Shown here: in pieces, positions 2,862-18,004 of the stretch | Layout of the letters: each line of letters opens with the position of its first letter | Position numbering within the stretch: the stretch's first letter is position 1 | Source: a virus | Length of the DNA: 39,101 nucleotides | Virus record (IMG/VR): IMGVR_UViG_3300020215_000095 | Span: 1-39,101 of that record | Strand: one strand, 5' to 3' | Made by a program: the position numbers and the translations under genes | The notes under the pieces: generated by a model | The model's input: only the letters and a program-made list of their open reading frames with translations | Databases searched by the model: none | What the model was told of the DNA's origin: nothing

Positions 2862-3494
2862 ATGTTCAAGACGCTTCTCCTGGCGGCCGTCGCCAGCATC
2901 GCCACGAGCGCCCAGGCCGCAAACGTCATCGACCAGAACCAGCCCGACGGGAACGCCGGGCTTGCGGGCTTTAGCAACCTGAGCCACCCGCTTCAGTCTT
3001 TCCAGACGAACGCGGGCAATGTCTCCGGCGGCGGGTTCAGGGTGCACGGCGTCAGCGGCACCGACCCGCTTGAGCTTCAGATCGCGCTCTGGGACGCGCT
3101 CCCGAACGCCGTCGGAGCCAACCAGCTTGCGAGCGGCACGGTCGAAGTCGATCCGGTCGTCGAGCAGTGGGCCGACGTGTTCTGGACGCCGGTCACCGTC
3201 GCTACCATGACCACCTACTACCTCACTGTCGACATCGCCGGAGGCACCGTCGGGGGCGGCGTGGTGGGCGTGTTCCGGGGCAACCCGTATCCGAACGGAG
3301 AGCTCTTCCTGCGGGACGCGGGTAGCGGGGGCCAGTACCAGACCTACAGCTCTGACACGACCTTCCGCACCTACACATTCGTCGAGAACACCGGAGCGAT
3401 CCCCGAGCCCGCGACCTGGGCCTTGCTGATCGGCGGGTTCGGGCTTGCGGGAGGAATGCTCCGCCGGGTACGAAGCGTACCGGTGCGGAGTTAG
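2862..3494 (+). CDS. PEP-CTERM sorting-domain protein
   Basis: The 210-residue product starts with a Sec signal peptide (hydrophobic residues 4-15, cleavage after AQA near residue 19). A beta-rich Gly/Val/Thr ectodomain follows (about 20-175). It ends with a PEP-CTERM signal: PEPATW from 181, a hydrophobic glycine-rich helix, then RR. Proteins of this class are exported and processed at the C-terminus by exosortase/archaeosortase systems encoded by the host. The PEPATWA...GFG form is typical of sphingomonads. The gene has no obvious phage role, and its stop overlaps tRNA-Gly by 10 nt. It is either a lysogenic-conversion gene or host DNA picked up next to the integration site. Confidence 0.9.
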   Translation: MFKTLLLAAVASIATSAQAANVIDQNQPDGNAGLAGFSNLSHPLQSFQTNAGNVSGGGFRVHGVSGTDPLELQIALWDALPNAVGANQLASGTVEVDPVVEQWADVFWTPVTVATMTTYYLTVDIAGGTVGGGVVGVFRGNPYPNGELFLRDAGSGGQYQTYSSDTTFRTYTFVENTGAIPEPATWALLIGGFGLAGGMLRRVRSVPVRS

Positions 3495-3560
3495 CTCAGC
3501 TGGTAGAGCATCTGGTTCCCATCCAGAAGGTCGCGCGTTCGAGTCGCGTACTCCGCTCCA
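3485..3560 (+). tRNA. tRNA-Gly (anticodon CCC)
   Basis: A complete cloverleaf: acceptor GCGGAGT pairs with ACTCCGC, the D arm begins AGCTCAGCTGG, and anticodon stem TCTGG/CCAGA encloses loop TTCCCAT (anticodon CCC). The T arm contains GTTCGAGTC, and the discriminator T is followed by an encoded CCA at 3558-3560. Its 5' end overlaps the PEP-CTERM gene. With a tyrosine integrase 220 nt downstream, its 3' half is the likely attachment core. Confidence 0.96.
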
Positions 3561-3760: not shown

Positions 3761-3779
3761 GAGCCAGATTGGAGCCAGA
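3761..3779 (+). repeat. Direct repeat pair GAGCCAGA (putative integrase arm sites, right)
   Basis: Copies at 3761-3768 and 3772-3779 keep the 11-bp spacing of the left pair, 188 bp away. The second copy overlaps the integrase ribosome-binding site (GGAG 3771-3774), so protein binding here could also repress integrase expression. Confidence 0.55.
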
Positions 3780-3780
3780 T

Positions 3781-4857
3781 ATGCGGCTAACGGAAATCAG
3801 CATCCGGGCTCTCAAGGGCTCGGAAAAGTACCCCACCCACTTCTGCGACAGCACGCCGGGGTTCGGGGTGCGCTGTGGCTTGAAGAAGAAGACGTACGTG
3901 GTCGTGCGCGGCCGAAACCGCGAGCGCATCACGATCGGGACCGTCGGGCAGATCAGCCTCTCTGACGCGCGGAACGAAGCGAAGCGCCTCCTCCTCAACG
4001 AACCGGGGGAGAAGACTGCCACCGTTTCCTTCGACGAAGCCCGTACGCGCTTCCTAGAGGCTCTCGAAGCCTCGAAAAGCCCGAGATACCACTACCAGGT
4101 CAAACGGGCCTTAGAGCGGCATTTTAAGCCTCTGGAGGGCCGTCCTGTGGCTGACCTCAACCATGAGGACATCGAGCGGTGCCTCGCCAAGCTCAGCGAC
4201 CGTCCCTCCGAACAGCTCCACGCCTACCGCTACGCGCGGGCACTCTTCAACTGGGCGGCCAAAGCACCCCGCAAGTGGGTGAAGGTCTCCCCGATGTACG
4301 GGTACGATCCCCCGTCCCAGGATCGGAAGGGCTCGCGCGTCCTCAAGGATGAGGAGATCGTCCGCATCTGGTACGCGTCGCCCCCGATCTTCCGCCTCAT
4401 GATCCTGTGGGGCACGAGGAACACCGAGACGTGCGTTCTTGAGCGGGAGTGGATTGTGGACTCGGTTCTAACCATACCGGGTCGCTACACGAAAAATGGG
4501 CGGGACCACGCGATACCTGTGTGTCCCCTGGCAGAGACCATCCTTGCCGGACCATCCAACCAGTACGTCTTCCCCGGCAGGTGGGGCGGGCACATCCACC
4601 CCGGTGCTCTCGGAAAACTGAAGCGCGAGGTGTTACAAAAGAGTGCCACCAACCGCTGGCAGCTCCGCGACCTCCGCCGGACGTTCAGGAGCCTCGCCGC
4701 GCGGGTCGGGGTTCCGCGAGAGATCGCGGAAGTCCTCGTCAACCACGCCCCGCCGGTCCTCGACGAGATCTACGACCGGTACGACCGTATCCGCGAGAAA
4801 CGCGAGGCGCTTTTGAGGATCGAGCACGCTTTGGTATGGTTGCTCGCCCGGGTCTAA
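3781..4857 (+). CDS. int: Tyrosine-type site-specific integrase
   Basis: The 358-residue protein starts at ATG 3781, with GGAG 6 nt upstream (an in-frame TTG at 3769 is less likely). An N-terminal arm-binding domain (1-75, including PGFGVRCG) resembles the P4-type integrase N-terminus, and a core-binding SAM-like domain spans about 83-175. The catalytic domain shows Arg213 (GTRNTE), Lys238 (YTKNGR), R296-D-L-R299, His322 (VNHAP) and Tyr331 or Tyr334 (IYDRYD). The usual His of the HxxR box is Arg296. It catalyses attP x attB strand exchange, presumably at tRNA-Gly, and lies next to its excisionase. Confidence 0.95.
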   Translation: MRLTEISIRALKGSEKYPTHFCDSTPGFGVRCGLKKKTYVVVRGRNRERITIGTVGQISLSDARNEAKRLLLNEPGEKTATVSFDEARTRFLEALEASKSPRYHYQVKRALERHFKPLEGRPVADLNHEDIERCLAKLSDRPSEQLHAYRYARALFNWAAKAPRKWVKVSPMYGYDPPSQDRKGSRVLKDEEIVRIWYASPPIFRLMILWGTRNTETCVLEREWIVDSVLTIPGRYTKNGRDHAIPVCPLAETILAGPSNQYVFPGRWGGHIHPGALGKLKREVLQKSATNRWQLRDLRRTFRSLAARVGVPREIAEVLVNHAPPVLDEIYDRYDRIREKREALLRIEHALVWLLARV

Positions 4858-4895: not shown

Positions 4896-5102
4896 ATGAA
4901 GCTGCTATCGAAGAAGGAAGTGCGCAACCGGGTCGGTATCTCTCCCGCCCACATTGCCAGGATGGAGACGCAGCCTGAATACGCCCACCTCGGGTTTCCC
5001 CGCCGTGTGCGTGTCGGGTTCCGGGTCTTCTGGCTTGAGGACGAGATTGACGACTTCATCCGGCGGCGCGTTTCCGAACGCGATGCACACACCGGCTCCT
5101 AA
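4896..5102 (+). CDS. AlpA/MerR-like excisionase
   Basis: A 68-residue winged-helix DNA-binding protein. LLSKKEVRNRVGISPAHIARM (residues 3-23) is the helix-turn-helix, then FPRRVRVGFRVFW forms the wing and DEIDDFIRRR the final helix. This is the AlpA/phage excisionase layout. Such proteins bind near attP to direct excision and often regulate integrase. AGGAGC (4885-4890) gives a good ribosome-binding site for ATG 4896. The tail after residue 60 is polar and unstructured. The gene is followed immediately by a strong terminator that closes the integration block. Confidence 0.88.
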   Translation: MKLLSKKEVRNRVGISPAHIARMETQPEYAHLGFPRRVRVGFRVFWLEDEIDDFIRRRVSERDAHTGS

Positions 5103-5149: not shown

Positions 5150-5225
5150 CCTGTCCACACGAGCCGTCCATACGGCCAGCTACACTGTATGTACCGCACC
5201 GTACGGCTATCCCACTGGTTCCGCA

Positions 5226-5364
5226 CCACTGTTCGTCGGGCTCACGCCACGACCCAATGCCCTCCAGCCGTCTACCGACCGTCTGGCCCCACGCGCGGTA
5301 TAGGACACGCGCGCGAGGGACGGGCATTGGGTCGTGGCGCTTCGCGCACACAGACGAACAGTGG
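5226..5364. repeat. Large interrupted inverted repeat with internal direct repeats
   Basis: Outer arms CCACTGTTCGTC (5226-5237) and GACGAACAGTGG (5353-5364) match over 12 bp. Inner arms at 5246-5262 and 5322-5338 match over 17 bp (GCCACGACCCAATGCCC and its complement). Asymmetric unpaired segments separate the two arm pairs. The 59-nt apex holds direct repeats CCGTCT (5268, 5279) and CACGCGCG (5290, 5306). No convincing gene lies in 5150-5481. It may be a cruciform-type replication or transfer origin, or a long structured RNA. It lies directly upstream of the relaxation/ATPase operon. Confidence 0.7.
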
Positions 5365-5397
5365 GCGGTCAGTACCCCTCTGGGGATGAACCGTTCA

Positions 5398-5410: not shown

Positions 5411-5431
5411 ATAGACCCGTACCTTGTTTCA

Positions 5432-5481
5432 GGGCCGGCAGAAGCACCCTGCAAGGACGCGGGCTCTACTCCTCCCGGCCC
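5432..5481 (+). promoter_or_regulatory. Leader hairpin abutting the start codon
   Basis: GGGCCGG (5432-5438) pairs with CCGGCCC (5475-5481), ending one base before ATG 5482. Instead of a Shine-Dalgarno sequence the leader carries its complement-like CTCCTCC (5468-5474 region). A similar CTCCTCCCG occurs in the leader of the gene at 8721. Confidence 0.4.
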
Positions 5482-6219
5482 ATGAATGCCCTCGTTGTCG
5501 GCTCAAACCAGGAGCCGCTTTCACACTACCTTCCCCGCGCCAACTTCCTTCTGATCGACGACGAACTTCCCGATCGACTGCGCGCGCGGGCGTTTGACGT
5601 TGCCCGCCACACGTTCAATCCCCTTACCGGCCTCACCCCCAACCGGGCACGGGATCTGGCCGAACTGTTCTACGCCGCCGATCCCGGCGGCGACGCAACG
5701 CTTACCGTACGCAACGGGAAGCGGGCCCTCGCGCCCATGCTCGTGGCCGCCAAACGGATCGATCAGCTGACGGGCGATCGGAAGGACCCAGCCGCCGCCG
5801 AAGCCCTCGCCATGATCGACAACATCCTGTTCTCCCCCACGGTCCGCCGGGTCCTCACTGGTTCCAACTTCTCCCTGAAGGGCACCATCCTCGCCCGGTT
5901 GAACCGAGCCGAGCTCGGGGACTTCGACTGCTACGTCCTCGGAAACCTCCTCATCTCCCAGTACCAGGGCCAGGTGGTCATCCCCGACTTTGGCTTCTAC
6001 GCCGCGCCCTTCCACACCTCCCTCATCCGACAGAACCGGCTCATCGCCGGGATACGGTCCTTTGACGAGGTGCCGAAGTTCCGGAACCAGCTGATCCAGA
6101 TCGAGGAGAAAGTCGGGAGCCGCTGCACCCCGGAGGACGCGAAGCTCCTCGCCGTCTACGAAGGACTGGTACCGGGCACGAACGAGTACAACGACTTCAT
6201 CGGGCGGTGCATCGCTTGA
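5482..6219 (+). CDS. Putative ATPase-like partner protein (no Walker A)
   Basis: First gene of the ATPase/relaxation operon, 245 residues. Residues 22-50 (LLIDDELPDRLRARAFDV then HTFNPL) and 140-190 (ILARLNRAELGDFDCYVLG then a VVIPDFGFY strand) look like pieces of a RecA-type fold resembling VirD4/TraG-like ATPases. There is no GxxGxGK[ST] Walker A loop. I infer a catalytically dead ATPase paralogue or regulatory subunit. This is a judgement from local patterns, not an established family. No Shine-Dalgarno sequence precedes ATG, and a leader hairpin ends at the start codon. Two genes downstream lies the active ATPase. Confidence 0.75.
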   Translation: MNALVVGSNQEPLSHYLPRANFLLIDDELPDRLRARAFDVARHTFNPLTGLTPNRARDLAELFYAADPGGDATLTVRNGKRALAPMLVAAKRIDQLTGDRKDPAAAEALAMIDNILFSPTVRRVLTGSNFSLKGTILARLNRAELGDFDCYVLGNLLISQYQGQVVIPDFGFYAAPFHTSLIRQNRLIAGIRSFDEVPKFRNQLIQIEEKVGSRCTPEDAKLLAVYEGLVPGTNEYNDFIGRCIA

Positions 6220-6239
6220 CAGTCACGGAACGCGGGTTT

Positions 6240-6260
6240 CCCCTCTCTTAGGGGGAGGGG
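6240..6260 (+). promoter_or_regulatory. Hairpin that can bury the ribosome-binding site
   Basis: CCCCTC (6240-6245) pairs with GAGGGG (6255-6260), which contains the Shine-Dalgarno GGAGG for ATG 6265. Translation of the next gene may depend on opening this stem. Confidence 0.4.
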
Positions 6261-6264
6261 ACGA

Positions 6265-6702
6265 ATGCAGCTCAAACTCAAGCGGTCACAACAGGGAAGG
6301 AAGTTCCTTCTCGAAGTCCGTGCGGAGTTCACACCCGAGGAACAGACGCGCGTCGCGGAAATCCCCTACTACGACATCCTCCACGTCGTGCGAGACGCGG
6401 GGGCTCGGGACGTCACCAAACGGTCGGGCCTATTCAAGGCTGCCGTCACGGGCTTCTTCCCGGAGCTCAAGAGCGACGCGATCTACATCTCGGCCAAATC
6501 CATCCAGCGCGGCCACGTCATCGAAGCCGACTACCTCGAAGCCATCACCGAGGTTGAGAGCAAAATCCGCAACGGCTGCAAGACCCTTCAGACGCACCTC
6601 GACGTGCGCGGATCCTTCACCGGCGAGGAGCAGGTCATCGACCTCGCCGAGGAAGGTCGGGTCGTGGCGCGCGCCGTTCCGCCGCCGGAGCGCGATGACT
6701 AG
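6265..6702 (+). CDS. Hypothetical operon protein
   Basis: A 145-residue soluble protein, starting at ATG 6265 with a G-rich ribosome-binding site. It has beta-strand-like basic residues 1-20, an acidic helical middle, and a proline/charged tail. No motif is recognised. Its stop overlaps the ATPase start by 8 nt (ATG 6695 inside the final codons), so the two are translationally coupled and probably made in a fixed ratio. By position it is a likely accessory or adaptor of the ATPase. Confidence 0.75.
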   Translation: MQLKLKRSQQGRKFLLEVRAEFTPEEQTRVAEIPYYDILHVVRDAGARDVTKRSGLFKAAVTGFFPELKSDAIYISAKSIQRGHVIEADYLEAITEVESKIRNGCKTLQTHLDVRGSFTGEEQVIDLAEEGRVVARAVPPPERDD

Positions 6703-8620
6703 CCATCAGGCCGAGATCGAGGACACCCGTCGGCTCTTCGCGTGGATACAGGAACAGGACAAGCAGCTCCTCGACGACCTCCCGCACGAGATCGGCATCC
6801 GCATCTTCGACGCGTTCCTCTCGCACGTCCCGCCGGGCATCAGCGGGCACTTCGGGACGGCGGTCGCCGCCGTGCTTGGGGAGGAGCGCTACCTGTGGCC
6901 GACCCCGCCGCCCGCCTTCGACCGCATGAGCCTCAAGGAGCTCACCGAGTACCGCCACCTCCTCTTTCAGAAGCGGCACTTCATCAAGAACGAGGAGGCG
7001 TACTACCGCCTCCTGTTTGATGGCGTGGGGCGCGCGTTTGGGGCGATTGCGAACGACCTCCCGTCGATCGAGCAGCCGTCGCCCTTCACGATCCCGCTTA
7101 TCTACACCGTCCCCGATCCGCGCAGGCTCGTCAGCGAAATCACCGCCACGATGACCGCGACGCGGTTCTATGACCGCGGCATGTTCAAAGACCTGGCTGA
7201 CCGACTTCTGGCAAATGCCCGGAAGGTCTCCGGCAGCACGCCGACGAACCGACGGCCCCTCAAACCCGCAACCGAGAGCGACCTTCCGCTTGACGAGCTC
7301 GTGAGCGGATACCTTGGGGGGACACCCTTCCACGACCTCCTCATGGCTCCGGTCCCGCTCAAACTCTCCCAGAAGGATCGGTTCAGCCACATGCACGTGG
7401 TCGGGGGCACGGGGGCGGGAAAGACCTCGCTCCTCGAACACCTCATCCTCTCCGACCTACGGAGCCCCGATCCGCCGTCCTTGGTCATCGTTGATCCGCA
7501 CGGCGACCTCATCAACCGGCTCACGCACGCGGACCTCGGCATCGAAGACCGGCTCATCGTCATCGACCCGAGGGACACGAAGCACCCGCCCGCCCTGAAT
7601 GTGTTTGCGATCAACCAGGAGCGCATGCGCGGGTATGACGAGGCCACGCGCGAGCAGGTGACGGCCGGGGTCATCCAGACCTTCGACTACCTCTTCACCG
7701 GGCTCGTGGGCGCAGACCTCACGGCCAAGCAGGGCGTGTTCTTCCGCTACGTCGCGCGGCTCATGCTCGCGCTCCCCGACGCCCTCGGCCGGAACGCCAC
7801 GATCCTCGACATGATCCAGCTCATGCGCGACCCCACGCCGTATGCCAAGGCCATCGAGCAGCTCCCGCCCTTGCAGCGGGAGTTCTTCGCGCACGACTTC
7901 GCCACGAAGACCTTCGCGCAGACGAAGGAACAGATCGCCTACCGGCTCCGCGCCATCATCGAGAACCCCACTTTGGCCCGGCTCTTCACCGCGCCAGAGA
8001 CGAAGGTCGACCTCTTCACCGAGCTTAACCGGGGATCGGTCATTCTTGTCGACACGGCGAAGGATTTCCTCAAGGACGGCAGCGGCAACTTCGGCCGCAT
8101 TTTCATCAGCCTCACGCTTCAGGCCGTCCTTGAACGGGCCGCCATTCCCGAAGCAAGGCGCAAGCCGACCTTCCTCATCGTGGACGAGGCGGCCACCTAT
8201 TTCGACAGCAACATCGACGATCTCTTGACCGACGCCCGCAAGTACCGCTGCGGGGTCGTGCTCAGTCACCAGTACCTTGACCAGGCCACCGGGAGCCTTC
8301 GAGCCTCGCTCCACGCCAACACGGGGATCAAGTTCGCCTCCGGTCTTTCGGCGAGCGACGCCCGTTCCATGGCCCCGGAGATGCGTACGACGGCCGACTT
8401 CATCCTCAATCAGCCGGGCCTTCAGTTCGCCGCGCACATCAAGAACGTCACGCCTCAGGCCGTTTCGATCCCCATCCGGCCTGGCGCGCTCGCGCGCGTC
8501 CCCACACTTTCCCCCGCTGCCTACGAACGGCTCGTCGAGCGCAACCGGACCAAGGTATCCCTCCCGTCCGTGCCTGTATCCCCAGCGACGCCCGACGAGG
8601 ATATAAGCCGCGAGTGGTAG
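6695..8620 (+). CDS. VirD4/TraG-like conjugative coupling ATPase
   Basis: The 641-residue protein is a DNA-translocating RecA/HerA-class ATPase. The N-terminal 220 residues are helical with no transmembrane helices. Walker A is GGTGAGKT at 237-244, a strand VIVDPHGD follows at 264-271, Walker B is FLIVDEA at 493-499 and the arginine/glutamine sensor SHQYLDQ at 524-530. This order is that of TraG/TraD/VirD4 coupling proteins, which pump relaxosome DNA in conjugation. Lack of membrane segments suggests a soluble, VirD4-like form as in integrative elements. ATG 6695 (CGGAG 5 nt upstream) is chosen; upstream frame extension only overlaps the preceding gene. Such an ATPase is unexpected in a tailed phage. 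Confidence 0.9.
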   Translation: MTSHQAEIEDTRRLFAWIQEQDKQLLDDLPHEIGIRIFDAFLSHVPPGISGHFGTAVAAVLGEERYLWPTPPPAFDRMSLKELTEYRHLLFQKRHFIKNEEAYYRLLFDGVGRAFGAIANDLPSIEQPSPFTIPLIYTVPDPRRLVSEITATMTATRFYDRGMFKDLADRLLANARKVSGSTPTNRRPLKPATESDLPLDELVSGYLGGTPFHDLLMAPVPLKLSQKDRFSHMHVVGGTGAGKTSLLEHLILSDLRSPDPPSLVIVDPHGDLINRLTHADLGIEDRLIVIDPRDTKHPPALNVFAINQERMRGYDEATREQVTAGVIQTFDYLFTGLVGADLTAKQGVFFRYVARLMLALPDALGRNATILDMIQLMRDPTPYAKAIEQLPPLQREFFAHDFATKTFAQTKEQIAYRLRAIIENPTLARLFTAPETKVDLFTELNRGSVILVDTAKDFLKDGSGNFGRIFISLTLQAVLERAAIPEARRKPTFLIVDEAATYFDSNIDDLLTDARKYRCGVVLSHQYLDQATGSLRASLHANTGIKFASGLSASDARSMAPEMRTTADFILNQPGLQFAAHIKNVTPQAVSIPIRPGALARVPTLSPAAYERLVERNRTKVSLPSVPVSPATPDEDISREW

Positions 8621-8623
8621 AAT
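8615..8623 (+). promoter_or_regulatory. Extended -10 TGGTAGAAT
   Basis: TGG plus TAGAAT (8618-8623) overlaps the stop codon of the ATPase gene. It would give the replication-relaxation gene its own transcript with a leader of about 90 nt, which holds a CTCCTCCCG element like that upstream of 5482. Confidence 0.5.
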
Positions 8624-8720
8624 ATTCGCGTGTCCATACGGGACCATAGCGAAGCACTCGGCACATCCCTCCTTATGCCGTCCGGTTACGAGGCGCGCTC
8701 CTCCCGATATCTCCTAATGC

Positions 8721-9671
8721 ATGATTACTCTTCCAGCCTACGACAACGACGACCCTCCTCGTCGCCTTCGCTTCGCGCCTCCAAACCCTAAGCAGAAGCG
8801 GCTTGTCTTGCAGGAAGCCGACTTCTGCATGTTCGAGGCGATCGACCGGCACGGGCCGCTGCCTACTCCCTACCTCTACGAATTCGCCCGCACCTTCCGC
8901 CCGAGCTACCTCAAGACGCAAAAGCGCCTCACGGAGCTCTACAACGGCGACCAGGTGGGCTCGTATCTTACTCGTCCCCCACGCCAGTTCGAGGCGTTTG
9001 AGGCCCGCTACCAGCACATCGTCTACGACCTCACGGACCGGGCCAAACTCGCCTTAGAAGATCGACTCGGCCGCTTCTCGCCGCGCCGGACCGATCCGTT
9101 CTTGCATCAGCTCATGGGGGCCTGCGTCGCGTCCTCGATCGAACTGGCGTGCCGAGAGAAGGGCCTGCGCTATATCCCCCGCGAGGAGATCCTCACGCAC
9201 CCGAAGGTGGGGCAGGCCAAAGACGCTACGAACCCGATGGCGCTTCCGGTGGGGAGTAGCAAGCTAGTCCCAGACGACCTCTTCGGCATCGAGTATCCGG
9301 GGGAGGGGTTTCGCTTCTTCGCCGTTGAGATTGATAGAAATACCGAGAGCATCGAGCGCAGAAACCTCGAACAAACAGCGTTCGGAAGGAAGGTCGGGAA
9401 CTACCTCGAAGTCTTGGGGGCACGAACCTTTCAGGCATGGTGGGGCATCCCGAACCTGTCGATCCTCATTGTCACCACAAACGCCACCCACGGCAGGAAC
9501 ATTCTCGACTACATCAGGAAGCAGCGGAACGAGAAGTACGAGGGCCGGTTCGCGCTCTCCGTCGTGCCTTCCTTCGGCGTGAACTGGCGCGTACCGAAGA
9601 CCGTGCTCACGCACCTCCTTGCGGAGCCGTGGGCCACCGTCACCGGCACCAAGGACATCGGCAGGCCATAA
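8721..9671 (+). CDS. Replication-relaxation family protein
   Basis: The 316-residue product matches the layout of the replication-relaxation family of conjugative elements and plasmids. A winged-helix region (about 30-115, FCMFEAIDRHGPLPTPYLYEF pattern split over two helices) is followed by an alpha/beta domain. That domain contains VPDDLFGI (183-190) and FFAVEIDRNTES (199-210). The D...E-I-D arrangement with Lys224 downstream resembles a PD-(D/E)xK nuclease site, an inference of mine. Family members are linked to plasmid DNA relaxation and often sit next to TraG-type ATPases, as here. The start has no Shine-Dalgarno sequence; ATG 8717 is out of frame. Confidence 0.85.
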   Translation: MITLPAYDNDDPPRRLRFAPPNPKQKRLVLQEADFCMFEAIDRHGPLPTPYLYEFARTFRPSYLKTQKRLTELYNGDQVGSYLTRPPRQFEAFEARYQHIVYDLTDRAKLALEDRLGRFSPRRTDPFLHQLMGACVASSIELACREKGLRYIPREEILTHPKVGQAKDATNPMALPVGSSKLVPDDLFGIEYPGEGFRFFAVEIDRNTESIERRNLEQTAFGRKVGNYLEVLGARTFQAWWGIPNLSILIVTTNATHGRNILDYIRKQRNEKYEGRFALSVVPSFGVNWRVPKTVLTHLLAEPWATVTGTKDIGRP

Positions 9672-10097: not shown

Positions 10098-10685
10098 ATG
10101 TCCTCGTTCATCGACTTTGCTGCGGTGAAGGAGGCCGTCTCCTTCGCGCAAGCTATCGAGTTCCTCGACCTTCGACTGAAGCTCGCGGGCAATCAGTTTC
10201 GCGGGCAGTGCCCCGTCTGTAAGGGAGACCCTCGTGGTTTGGTGGTGACGCCGGATCGCGGGTTCTACTGCTTCTCCCAGCGGAAGGGCGGCGACCAGAT
10301 CGCGCTTGCTGCGCACATCCTCGACATCCAGGCCAAGGACGCCGCTGCGTTCCTTGCGGAGAAGGCCGGTCTCACGCGGAACAGTACCAATGGAAAGGTA
10401 CCGTCCCGTACCGTTCCCGAGAGCGAGGCGGTGGGGGGCAGTAAGCTCTCCCCGCTGAGCTACCTCGAACCGGAGCACGACATGGTGCACGCGATCGGCT
10501 TTGACCCCGACTTCGCGGAGCGCCATGGCATCGGCTACGCCCCGCGTGGCGTTGGAAGAGGCTGGGTCTTAGTCCCCTTCCGTGACGAGGCGGGGACACT
10601 CCTCGGCTACATCGGCGTCGGCGCGGATTGCTGGCTGCCGTCGGACTTCAAGGAGAAGATCGTGCCGCTTCAGAAGCGTGCGTAA
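10098..10685 (+). CDS. CHC2 zinc-finger primase-like protein
   Basis: Chosen start ATG 10098 has AGGAGG (10087-10092) 5 nt upstream and gives 195 residues. A zinc-finger segment C38-P-V-C41 with C58 in GFYCF is followed by GGDQIAL, the signature of CHC2-type primase N-termini. The usual fourth ligand position is Gln/Arg. The rest (about 130-185) contains an alpha/beta part with WVLVPFRDEAGTLLGYIGV, like the start of a primase core. No full TOPRIM site (E...DxD) is present, so catalysis is doubtful. Similar short CHC2 proteins occur on alphaproteobacterial islands. It may prime or load on single-stranded DNA produced by the relaxation system. Confidence 0.85.
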   Translation: MSSFIDFAAVKEAVSFAQAIEFLDLRLKLAGNQFRGQCPVCKGDPRGLVVTPDRGFYCFSQRKGGDQIALAAHILDIQAKDAAAFLAEKAGLTRNSTNGKVPSRTVPESEAVGGSKLSPLSYLEPEHDMVHAIGFDPDFAERHGIGYAPRGVGRGWVLVPFRDEAGTLLGYIGVGADCWLPSDFKEKIVPLQKRA

Positions 10686-11022: not shown

Positions 11023-11760
11023 ATGACCCTCGTCTTGCACGCGGGGGCCGAGGCCGTTGACTTTGACGCGCTGCGCCAGGTCAACACGCCGCCGGCTACC
11101 AGCACCCATGTGCCGCTTCCGCATCATCAGCTCGTCGAGATGGTGCGCTATTCCCTCGGCTTCTACGGCCACGAGATCGTGGACGAGACCTTTGGCGTCA
11201 CCCCCGACGGCGCTCGCTTCTTCGGCGTCATGAGCCTCAAGTCCGCCTACGGTGACTACACCGACGTGCTCGGCATGCGGAACAGCCACGACAAGAGCTT
11301 CCCCGTCGCGCTCGCCTACGGCAGCCGCGTCTTCGTCTGCGACAACATGGCTTTCAGCGCCGACGTGGTGGTGAAAAGGAAGCACACCGCCAACGCCAAG
11401 CGGGATCTTCCGGGCATCGTCGCCGGCATCATCGAGCCCTTGCAGGAGAAGCGCATCGCGCAGGCCTGCACGATCGAGGCCTACAAGAACCGGCCCTTGG
11501 AGCTCGACGAGTTCGACCACTTGGTCATCGAGCTCTACCGGCGCGGCGCGATCAACCTCACCCGCATCGCAGACGTGGTGGATGCCTATGAACGGCCTCC
11601 CTACGACTGGGGCGACGAGACAGCGTGGCGGGCCTTCAACGCCGTAACCTACGCGCTGCGGGGCAAGGTCGCCGAAGCACCCCAGCTGACGCAGACCCTG
11701 CACCAGGTGATCGACGGTATCTGCGAGCCGGTCCTCGCGCTTCCAGCGCCGGTCAACTGA
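11023..11760 (+). CDS. DUF932 plasmid/phage-like protein
   Basis: From ATG 11023 (GGAG about 8 nt upstream) the product has 245 residues. Features typical of DUF932 proteins include an N-terminal PLPHHQLVEMV segment, GVTPDGARFFGVMSL at about 61-75, a GMRNSHDKSFPVALAYGSRVFVCDN core (about 85-108) and F-x-ADVVVKRKHT. DUF932 proteins are encoded by many phages and conjugative plasmids and are thought to act around DNA replication or plasmid maintenance, though no activity is established. The reading frame stays open upstream, but that part overlaps the XRE gene and is low-complexity. The gene is monocistronic with its own terminator. Confidence 0.88.
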   Translation: MTLVLHAGAEAVDFDALRQVNTPPATSTHVPLPHHQLVEMVRYSLGFYGHEIVDETFGVTPDGARFFGVMSLKSAYGDYTDVLGMRNSHDKSFPVALAYGSRVFVCDNMAFSADVVVKRKHTANAKRDLPGIVAGIIEPLQEKRIAQACTIEAYKNRPLELDEFDHLVIELYRRGAINLTRIADVVDAYERPPYDWGDETAWRAFNAVTYALRGKVAEAPQLTQTLHQVIDGICEPVLALPAPVN

Positions 11761-15345: not shown

Positions 15346-15545
15346 ACAAGCAGCAGCTTCGAGACTGGATCGACGAAGGCATGACCCGCGTCGCGGTCTT
15401 TATGTACCAGACCTACGGCATCCCGCTTGATGCGTTCAACGACGAGCTCTCAGGCCGCACGCGCGGCGAGCAGATGGCCTTCCTATCGAGCTTTGCAAAG
15501 GACTACCCGAGCGTCTTTGAAGGGATGCCGCGCTATGTGCCGTGA
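15342..15545 (+). CDS. Hypothetical protein between terminase genes
   Basis: A 67-residue helical protein beginning MNKQQLRDWIDEGMTRVAVFMY. It is linked by 4-nt overlaps to the gene before it (ATGA) and to the large terminase after it (GTGA). It has no cysteines or membrane helix. Its tight coupling suggests a role in packaging, for instance as part of the small subunit, but no family is recognised. Confidence 0.7.
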   Translation: MNKQQLRDWIDEGMTRVAVFMYQTYGIPLDAFNDELSGRTRGEQMAFLSSFAKDYPSVFEGMPRYVP

Positions 15546-16819
15546 GCTTCGTAAACTTCGAGATACACGAGAGCCACGCGCCCCTCTGGGAACGCTCTGA
15601 CTGGCGCTACGCAATCATCATGGGCGGCCGCGGCAACGGCCGCTCAGGCACCGCATCCCGCTTCGTCATCAGTCAGCTTCTCGGGAAGGAATACACCCGC
15701 GGCGCGATCATGCGCGCGGTCCATTCGGACATCCGCGCGTCGTGCTGGTCTGAGCTTCTCGACCGCCTGAACGAGCAAGGGATCACCGAGACCTTCAAGG
15801 CCAACGACGGGGACATGTACCTTGAGCGGGGTGCGAACTCCGTTCGGGCCCATGGTTTCAAGTCCTCATCAGGGGCGCTCACCGCCCGCCTCAAATCCCT
15901 CGCCGGCTACAACCTTCTCTGGATCGAAGAGGCCGAGGAGGTGGGCGAAGAGGACTTTATGAAGCTCGACGAGAGCTTGCGCACCGTGAAGGGGCGCATC
16001 CGCATCGTCCTCACGCTCAACACGCCCGTCAAAGGCCACTGGATACTCAACAAGTGGTTCGAGCTTGACCCGCATCCCGAGGCTCCCGGCTTTTACATCC
16101 CCCGGCTCCGCGCGGACGCCACCGACACCATCTTCATCGGCGGGACGTACCGCGAGAACCTCCCCAACCTCGACCCGCACACCGTCGAGATTTACGAGCG
16201 GCAGAAGCACACCAATCCCTCTCGCTACTGGCAGGTGATCGAGGGGCTCGCGCCCGACCAGGTGCGCGGCAAAATCTACACCGGCTGGCAGCTCATAGAT
16301 CAGATCCCGCCCGAGGCCCGCCTTGTACGGTTTGGCGAGGACTTCGGGTGGTTCCCCGACCCGGCCTGTGCCGTTGCGGTATACTACTGGAATGGAAGCT
16401 ACATCATCGACGAGCTGGCCTACGGCACCGAGCTTACAAATGAGCACTTGGCTAAGTGCATCAGGGAAGCCGGTACGGCCATCACCATCGCGGACAGCGC
16501 CGAGCCCAAATCGATCGCGGAGCAACGAAAGTACGGGATCAGCGTGAACCCCTGCGAGAAGGGGAAGGACAGCGTTCGTTTCGGGATACAGATCGTCAAT
16601 CAGAAGAAGATTTACGTAACAAGACGATCAAAGAACGTCTGGGAGAGCTACGAAAACTACGCGTGGGATGAGGACAAGGACGGGAACTCCAAGAATGAAC
16701 CCGCGCACAAGTACTCACACGCGATGGACGCGGTGAGGTACGCTATCACCAGCCTTCATGGGAAGCCGACGGCCGCTGTCCCCAGTGGTCCCCGTCATAG
16801 GGTCAATGTGGCGGTATAG
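15542..16819 (+). CDS. terL: Terminase large subunit (PBSX/Terminase_3 type)
   Basis: The 425-residue DNA-packaging motor starts at GTG 15542. The ATPase domain shows Walker A-like GGRGNGRS at 28-35, Walker B LLWIEE at 125-130 and the coupling motif LTLNTP at 158-163. The C-terminal RNase H-type nuclease contains Asp267 (GEDFGW), Asp318 (ADSAEP) and Asp396 (HAMDAV). The conserved Walker A lysine is Arg34; relatives with GRGxGRS are known to me, so this does not imply inactivity. It translocates DNA into proheads and cuts concatemers. It is coupled to the small upstream genes by a 4-nt overlap. Confidence 0.95.
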   Translation: MSFVNFEIHESHAPLWERSDWRYAIIMGGRGNGRSGTASRFVISQLLGKEYTRGAIMRAVHSDIRASCWSELLDRLNEQGITETFKANDGDMYLERGANSVRAHGFKSSSGALTARLKSLAGYNLLWIEEAEEVGEEDFMKLDESLRTVKGRIRIVLTLNTPVKGHWILNKWFELDPHPEAPGFYIPRLRADATDTIFIGGTYRENLPNLDPHTVEIYERQKHTNPSRYWQVIEGLAPDQVRGKIYTGWQLIDQIPPEARLVRFGEDFGWFPDPACAVAVYYWNGSYIIDELAYGTELTNEHLAKCIREAGTAITIADSAEPKSIAEQRKYGISVNPCEKGKDSVRFGIQIVNQKKIYVTRRSKNVWESYENYAWDEDKDGNSKNEPAHKYSHAMDAVRYAITSLHGKPTAAVPSGPRHRVNVAV

Positions 16820-17274: not shown

Positions 17275-17591
17275 GCGACCCGAAACCCGAGGACTTCAAG
17301 AAAGAGCGTGAACTTGTCCATCCGCTTGACGGCCTCCCGTCCTGGCTCAAGGAGCCCGAGGCGTACGAGAAGGTCCAACGGGCTCTGTACGACGCCCAGG
17401 TAGGGAGCTGCGGCACGCACGCCGAAGTCCTTGAATGGGCGGGGTGCACCAAGTGCCAGCAGGCGCAGTGGAACGTGAAGGAGATGATGGCGCGCTTTGG
17501 GTTCAAGGACGGGGCGCAGTACCTCGCATGGAGGAAGACCCACGAATACATCAAGGAGCACGTGCCGTTCGCTAAATACAACAGCCTATGA
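17271..17591 (+). CDS. Hypothetical protein with Cys/His motif
   Basis: A 106-residue mostly helical protein. CGTHAEVLEWAGCTKC (about 47-62) combines C, H and a CxxC pair, so a structural zinc is likely. The C-terminal part (FGFKDGAQYLAWRKTHEYI) is amphipathic. It is linked by ATGA overlaps to both neighbours, including the SET-domain gene. The function is unknown. Confidence 0.7.
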   Translation: MSDPKPEDFKKERELVHPLDGLPSWLKEPEAYEKVQRALYDAQVGSCGTHAEVLEWAGCTKCQQAQWNVKEMMARFGFKDGAQYLAWRKTHEYIKEHVPFAKYNSL

Positions 17592-18004
17592 GCAAAATAG
17601 ACGTGATCGATTTCTTGAACGCGACGGTGAAGATGAAGCTTGCCCCGTCACCCATCCACGGGATCGGGGTGTTCGCCATTAAGGACATCGCCGCAGGCAC
17701 GAAGCTCTTTGCCGATCGCATGCCCTTCCCGTACAAGCTTCAGCCCGCAGACCAGACCAAGCTCTTTCCCGAGGTGCGCGAGCTCCTCGTGAGCCGGTGG
17801 CCCCGGATGGTCCTGGGCGAGCCCTTTGGCTGGCCCGACGTCCACTTCCAGGGCTACATGAACCACGCGGATGAACCGACGTACGACGGCACGCTCGACA
17901 TCGTCATCCGCGACCTCAAAGCGGGCGACGAGATCACCGAGGACTATCGCCGGATACCGGGCTGGGAGGAGGCGTTCCCCTGGCTTGTTGAAAACTCCCC
18001 CTAG
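17588..18004 (+). CDS. SET-domain protein (putative lysine methyltransferase)
   Basis: The 138-residue product is a compact SET domain. SPIHGIGVFA at 21-30 (cofactor-loop GxG-type start), IAAGTKLF (34-41), YMNHADEP at 90-97 (the NHxxxPN-like motif) and LKAGDEITEDY at 110-120 ending in the catalytic-type Tyr. SET proteins transfer methyl from S-adenosylmethionine to lysines. There are no pre- or post-SET cysteine clusters, as in bacterial and viral minimal SET proteins. Lying between terminase and portal, it might modify a virion protein or a host chromatin protein; that target is speculation. It is coupled to the preceding gene by ATGA. Confidence 0.8.
   Translation: MSKIDVIDFLNATVKMKLAPSPIHGIGVFAIKDIAAGTKLFADRMPFPYKLQPADQTKLFPEVRELLVSRWPRMVLGEPFGWPDVHFQGYMNHADEPTYDGTLDIVIRDLKAGDEITEDYRRIPGWEEAFPWLVENSP

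Follow-up and report, generated by a model that had tools for sequence, protein, structure and literature searches.

What does an operon for a conjugation-type ATPase and a replication-relaxation protein do in the genome of a tailed phage? The locus that raises this question lies at positions 5482-9671 of the virus record IMGVR_UViG_3300020215_000095, whose full 39,101 bases (G+C content 62%) are called the window below. The record is recognised as that of a tailed phage by its gene for the terminase large subunit (15542..16819, plus strand; Terminase_3, PF04466, E = 1.5e-23), which lies outside the module discussed here. The initial annotation of this DNA regarded the locus as a sign of a hybrid element that handles or moves its DNA in a plasmid-like way in addition to packaging it. 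It is not isolated: the operon, a nearby palindrome that the first reading missed and several adjoining genes are the standard early module of a temperate, alphaproteobacterial phage group, and pairs of a VirD4/FtsK-like ATPase and a Replic_Relax protein have been noted in tailed phages of Bacillus (PMC9703825, PMC9476937, PMC9658697). We consider, with a probability of about 0.55, that operon and palindrome are a replication or DNA-processing module of temperate tailed alphaproteobacterial phages, adapted from a plasmid-type relaxosome.

Proteins of the operon

The span is filled by four genes (P1 to P4) on the plus strand and is, as first annotated, a real operon. The VirD4/TraG-like ATPase had been assigned to the gene that starts at 5482; it is instead the product of the third gene, P3 (6695..8620, 641 residues), in which both of the motifs that had been noticed are located, Walker A (VGGTGAGKTS, residues ~237-245) and Walker B (TFLIVDEA). 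This VirD4/TrwB/HerA-type ATPase scores 34.7 bits against TrwB_AAD_bind (PF10412; cut-off 20.5), also passes the cut-off of DUF87, has TrwB as its top solved-structure match and carries the invariant residues G242, K243, T244, D497 and E498. Its best PHROG is phrog_5156, a family of unknown function.

The product of the fourth gene, P4 (8721..9671, 316 residues), had been called a replication-relaxation protein, and its score of 27.8 bits to Replic_Relax (PF13814; cut-off 25.3) bears this out. PF13814 is the MOBC relaxase domain (PMC5357655); MOBC relaxases are PD-(D/E)XK enzymes, and a winged helix-turn-helix is present in TraX (PMC12857230). Two residues, D185 and E203, never vary among 29 diverse P4 homologs, P184, D205, T208 and Y228 hardly do, and P184-D185 ... 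E203-x-D205 makes up a PD-(D/E)XK-type site in which the lysine position is replaced. In the structure model (predicted local distance difference test score, pLDDT, 92.6) an N-terminal helical part (residues ~32-116) is followed by a core that bears PD...ExD on a beta hairpin. In the PDB this model matches folds of the XisH family, centromere binders that have a winged helix, and enzymes of the restriction or nicking type including Nt.BspD6I, all with modest scores and weak E-values, and winged-helix matches such as 4rs8 (probability 0.99) support an N-terminal winged helix. We conclude that P4 is a Replic_Relax/MOBC-type protein, predicted from sequence and model to combine a winged helix with a PD-(D/E)XK-like nuclease.

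Relatives of P3 were found at at least 535 loci, and the 80 that were fetched are mostly from Alphaproteobacteria. P4 is present in all 50 loci whose ATPase has 780 residues or fewer, and an adjacent P4 is present in none of the 22 loci with longer ATPases, which bear a C-terminal extension, as if it had taken the place of P4; the pattern may reflect few events, since the loci cluster phylogenetically. In the ATPases of more than 780 residues (L021, L031 and others) the extension is conserved and has a D...[EQ]xS pattern, as if a nuclease had been fused to them. This pattern is the one hint of a C-terminal PD-(D/E)XK domain in the longer ATPases, and Pfam gave no support for one.

Searches with family models gave no convincing match for either P1 or P2. 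For P1 (5482..6219, plus strand, 245 residues) the fold was informative: one of the unknown partners had been thought to be a RecA fold that lacks a Walker A, and this is indeed P1, whose model (pLDDT 77.6) has TrwB as each of its 29 best Foldseek matches in the PDB. A P1 profile matches the short (~390 residue) ATPase that many islands encode (hhalign probability 90, E = 1.6e-6) and gives no match to the long ATPase P3, and at L016, L017, L049 and L063 an active short ATPase occupies the place of P1, between the palindrome and P2/P3. Given the TrwB fold, the profile match and the shared position, P1 is best read as an inactive descendant of a short VirD4-type ATPase.

The ~390-residue proteins had been suspected of being a contaminating family among the ATPase-profile matches, and inspection showed them to be a second VirD4-type ATPase. 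Alphaproteobacterial islands (L013, L021, L036 and many more) carry two such ATPases, of ~390 and ~700-900 residues, together with P2, and they often hold serine recombinases, restriction genes or ParB-like genes as well; to judge from their gene content they may be a large, little-described class of element.

A conserved hairpin in the 5' leader (5420..5487, plus strand; model R1) ends at the P1 start codon. It is formed in seven phages by the ~65 nucleotides before the P1 start, and six of its pairs show double changes. Among 26 searched loci it occurs only upstream of P1, and the P1 phages that were newly found by a profile search (below) match the model more weakly. It probably serves translation control of P1.

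P2 (6265..6702, plus strand, 145 residues), classed as a small ATPase partner from its hidden Markov model family, an alignment (A9) and its hydropathy, is poorly conserved and lies directly upstream of the ATPase in 63 of the 72 loci that have enough flank. A Kyte-Doolittle scan of P2, P3 and P4 of the window found no hydrophobic segment that could be the membrane anchor of a coupling protein. Among the homologs such an anchor is found at the ATPase N-terminus in one clade and in P2 in others, including those of the phages L002, L012 and L092.

The palindrome and the recurrence of the module

Upstream of P1 lies a conserved imperfect palindrome of ~165 bp (5212..5378, no strand assigned), a candidate origin, origin of transfer (oriT) or priming site. 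Its arms are nested and perfect, pairing 5226-5237 with 5353-5364 (12 bp) and 5245-5262 with 5322-5339 (18 bp), the left flank TTCCGCAC and the core CCACGACC/GGTCGTGG are invariant, and the fold of the region has a z-score of -7.0. The same element, with different arm sequences, is present upstream of P1 in L006, L012, L091, L092 and L094, and in an alignment (A12) compensatory double changes occur in 17 of 37 pairs, with measures above those of shuffles and slid controls.

Is the palindrome tied to these genes? A covariance model run over 93 loci (1.7 Mb) matched 13 distinct loci at E < 0.001 (L093 and L110 are one phage and were counted once), of which seven had been used to build the model. 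Twelve of the 13 are the CHC2-family loci, and the thirteenth is the phage G007, whose CHC2 gene is on another piece. The palindrome is present in 15 of the 16 phages that have P1, and this includes seven of the eight P1 phages found later, which are data from outside the model building. Across 399 Sphingomonadales genomes P1 and the palindrome were each found in one genome, ~1.1 kb apart in the same prophage; this genome belonged to the training set, so the search is a test of specificity. A stricter palindrome pattern run against the viral collection returned three contigs, all of them P1 phages, an exact search with the 18-mer of the palindrome found nothing, and Rfam gave only sub-threshold matches, and no known RNA, for palindrome and leader. 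The co-occurrence with P1 and with the CHC2 loci argues that the palindrome is a specific cis element of the module, for which a role as an origin, as an oriT or in single-strand initiation would fit. In G007 (L093, 3634-5013) a ParB-like gene lies between P1 and the palindrome.

The genes that accompany operon and palindrome are, all on the plus strand of the window, those of a tyrosine integrase with an Arm-DNA-bind_3 domain (3769..4857; PF13356, 1.9e-7; phrog_1, 3.4e-41), an AlpA/excisionase-like regulator (4896..5102; phrog_66, 1.5e-6), a CHC2 zinc-finger (DnaG-type) primase-like protein (10098..10685; PF01807, 3.3e-8), in which no full primase domain was recognised, and a DUF932 phage/plasmid-like protein (11023..11760; PF06067, 9.7e-6). 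In the nearest viral relative (L002, ATPase 59% identical) the order from integrase to DUF932 is kept, and the terminase and portal are different. An integrase or AlpA, P1, P3, P4, CHC2 and DUF932 recur in seven further phages, apart from P3 and P4 in G007; the integrase keeps its position beside the module and the DUF932 proteins are 48-67% identical to that of the window, while the window terminase has no relative in these seven phages and its structural genes have almost none. One of the seven (L012/G001) is a prophage on a chromosome contig of the isolate genome Parerythrobacter lacustris RS5-5.

A search of viral contigs with the P1 profile added eight more phages, for 16 P1 phages in total (G001-G006 included). 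When 11 virus records were searched over their whole length, CHC2 was found in 11 of 11 and P3 with P4 in nine, adjacent and in the order P3-P4-CHC2. Fourteen of the 16 P1 phages hold P3, P4 and CHC2, and the other two, G007 and G409, hold CHC2 only. A first view, confined to 8-kb flanks, had suggested a second phage lineage devoid of P3, P4 and CHC2, and the whole-record searches overturned it. Finding the same combination of genes in other phages argues against both coincidence and a chimeric assembly, and the set Int-P1-P3-P4-CHC2-DUF932 is common to phages whose terminases differ, that is, the module is swapped between unrelated capsid cassettes. The initial annotation had allowed that two outcomes might undo it, namely that the contig is chimeric or that proteins of ordinary phage replication families had been taken for conjugation-like ones. 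Recurrence refutes them to the point that we give them virtually no credence: other virus records, and one chromosome as well, show the same gene order, and the families matched are those of coupling proteins and Replic_Relax.

Replication, transfer or maintenance

How might these parts act together? The set lies at the place in the genome at which one would look for the phage's own replication genes, and because it is found in otherwise unrelated phages, it is probably how such phages start copying or handling their DNA. We suggest that P4 would bind DNA through its winged helix and nick one strand at or near the palindrome, that the ring ATPase P3, with P2 as adaptor and P1 as ATP-dead partner, would be a motor for the opening or movement of the DNA that begins at the nick, and that the hairpin, once exposed, would start the second strand together with the CHC2 zinc-finger protein, leading to circles or concatemers and so to packaging by the terminase; the level of P1 would be set at its start codon by the leader hairpin. 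The more specific proposal, that tailed phages start replication by a PD-(D/E)XK relaxase-type nick at a palindrome, with a coupling-type ATPase and its inactive partner in place of an initiator and a replicative helicase, is tentative, and we would put it somewhat below even odds. What the analysis shows directly is which families the genes belong to, the motif and the fold of the P4 nuclease, the fold of the pseudo-ATPase, the joint conservation of the palindrome with the genes and the exchange of the module between capsid cassettes; nicking and its position, the motor role, priming, translation control and a use in replication rather than transfer are inferred. Of a standard phage replication module little was seen: four phage proteomes gave no Pfam match to a polymerase, helicase or Rep family, DnaB (PF03796) is absent from seven virus records, and the phage pair G002/G003 has RecT and YqaJ recombination genes.

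Several points weigh against a role in replication. The phages G007 and G409 keep P1, the palindrome and CHC2, and P3 and P4 were not detected in them, so P4 may not act on the palindrome, although these two records may be incomplete. Several of the new phages have the palindrome in the opposite orientation and downstream of P1, at a distance of 1.4-1.7 kb, and the ATPase/Replic_Relax pair is common in islands that have neither palindrome nor CHC2. The absence of replication genes is weak evidence because small temperate phages can use host replication proteins, and we know of no VirD4-type ATPase that is a replicative helicase.

Alternatively the module might serve mobilisation, in which the excised phage DNA, with the palindrome as oriT, P4 as MOBC relaxase and P3/P2 as coupling protein, would use the type IV secretion system (T4SS) of another element, as CloDF13 does with MobB and MobC. 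The pairing of P3 and P4 is that of MobB, a coupling protein that is also a relaxation accessory and part of the relaxation complex, with MobC, and it is also that of streptococcal integrative mobilisable elements (PMC12479173); homologs in other islands do bear membrane anchors in the ATPase or in P2. The transmembrane domain of MobB is, however, essential for mobilisation (PMC7431656), and P2 and P3 of the window have no membrane helix. No VirB-type T4SS channel family was found in the four phage proteomes, in line with the remark in the initial annotation that a secretion channel is missing, and almost every phage of the group retains the module alongside a primase-like gene, so that it resembles a core rather than an accessory function. 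We disfavour mobilisation as unlikely. The pathway of MOBC-type nuclease, coupling ATPase, hairpin and primase-type zinc finger, together with the failure to find DnaB, polymerase, helicase or Rep, leads us to favour replication or DNA processing over it. The earlier idea of plasmid-like DNA handling therefore stands as far as processing is concerned, with a relaxase-type nuclease, a coupling-type ATPase, an origin-like palindrome and no ordinary replication genes, and is not supported as movement by conjugation.

Less likely again is plasmid-like maintenance, in which the prophage would be extrachromosomal, P4 would bind a centromere or origin through its winged helix and P3/P1 would drive segregation. 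The winged helix of P4 does resemble the pNOB8/AspA centromere-binding protein, similar Bacillus phage pairs have been interpreted in this way (PMC9703825) and the plasmids L003 and L004 carry homologs; against this, integrase and AlpA genes adjoin the operon, one relative is integrated in the chromosome contig of an isolate, and in the window Pfam finds neither a ParA/ParM family nor any plasmid Rep initiator or other partition gene. HerA-nuclease pairs are common in defence, and the ATPase and nuclease might attack other DNA in defence or in competition between elements. P3 matches PADLOC mad8 (1.8e-21; mad3 only marginally, 0.024) and related ATPases are found in islands with restriction genes, but P1, P2 and P4 match nothing in PADLOC, so that the operon does not make up a MADS system, and a defence system would need neither a cis palindrome nor a primase-like gene; we regard this as quite improbable.

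Among known systems, CloDF13 MobB/MobC and MOBC relaxases such as TraX of pAD1 share the VirD4-type ATPase and the winged-helix PD-(D/E)XK nuclease of PF13814 type, and MobB aids plasmid relaxation. Here these occur in a tailed phage with no membrane anchor, an extra pseudo-ATPase, a CHC2 gene and a large palindrome, and nicking is predicted. The Tyroviruses (gp17/gp18) and other Bacillus phages are likewise temperate tailed phages with the same kind of FtsK/VirD4-like and Replic_Relax pair; there the pair lies beside plasmid-type partition genes or is described as a variable insert, whereas here, to compare with the published descriptions, it is alphaproteobacterial and conserved across a group with palindrome, P1, P2, CHC2 and DUF932. 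Streptococcal integrative mobilisable elements likewise unite an integrase with a PF13814 relaxase and a coupling protein of VirD4 type but, unlike this phage with its terminase, lack genes for capsid and terminase. In Thermus, TdtA/ICEth1 (PMC5365140) is an integrative element in which a HerA-type ring ATPase adjoins a nuclease, with no classical T4SS, but the nuclease is of NurA rather than Replic_Relax type and the system donates DNA between cells. HerA-NurA also partners a HerA-superfamily ATPase with a nuclease, and is a chromosomal DNA-repair pair with another nuclease family. Searches of an open-access library brought up no earlier account of the palindrome, of the pseudo-ATPase P1, of the leader, or of the module being exchanged as a unit among alphaproteobacterial phages; palindrome, pseudo-ATPase and module thus appear new, and the pairing of VirD4-like and Replic_Relax proteins was known already.

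If the replication reading is correct, relaxases and coupling ATPases known from conjugation would be replication machinery of double-stranded DNA phages, and conjugation, rolling-circle replication and packaging would become linked. It would also give a testable function to the Replic_Relax/VirD4 pairs that integrative elements, plasmids and phages carry in abundance and that are unexplained outside conjugation, and the palindrome is a concrete DNA target for assays of the little-studied MOBC enzymes.

Neighbouring genes and related records

A tRNA-Gly gene (CCC; 3485..3560, plus strand; ARAGORN and Rfam RF00005, 66.7 bits) adjoins the integrase gene and is possibly an attachment site or a phage-borne tRNA. 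We doubt that it is an attachment site flanked on the left by host DNA, as the phages G004 and G005 carry relatives of genes from that side beside their integrase. RNA ligase and NinG-like HNH genes lie left of the tRNA (60-620 and 1375-1875), and a relative of the latter adjoins the integrase in G004, which suggests a permuted phage genome, not host DNA. At 2862-3494 is the gene of a protein with a PEP-CTERM sorting signal, and a related C-terminus is encoded near the integrase of G005, so this gene may be phage-borne rather than host flank.

Of the late genes that the initial annotation named, the terminase is confirmed by its family match; no family model recognised a portal or a capsid protein in the window, and both names follow from gene order only. 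A SET-domain protein (17588-18004) sits in the phage late region. The phages G002 and G003 (L098-L102) carry genes for a PvuII-type restriction endonuclease, DNA methylases, a TIR domain and a RelA/SpoT domain. L005 (Microcystis phage Mwe-JY31, PP438423.1), a 22-kb record with ParA-like, Rep-like and VirD4-like ATPase genes and a possible Replic_Relax-like gene, looks plasmid-like, though it is filed as a phage.

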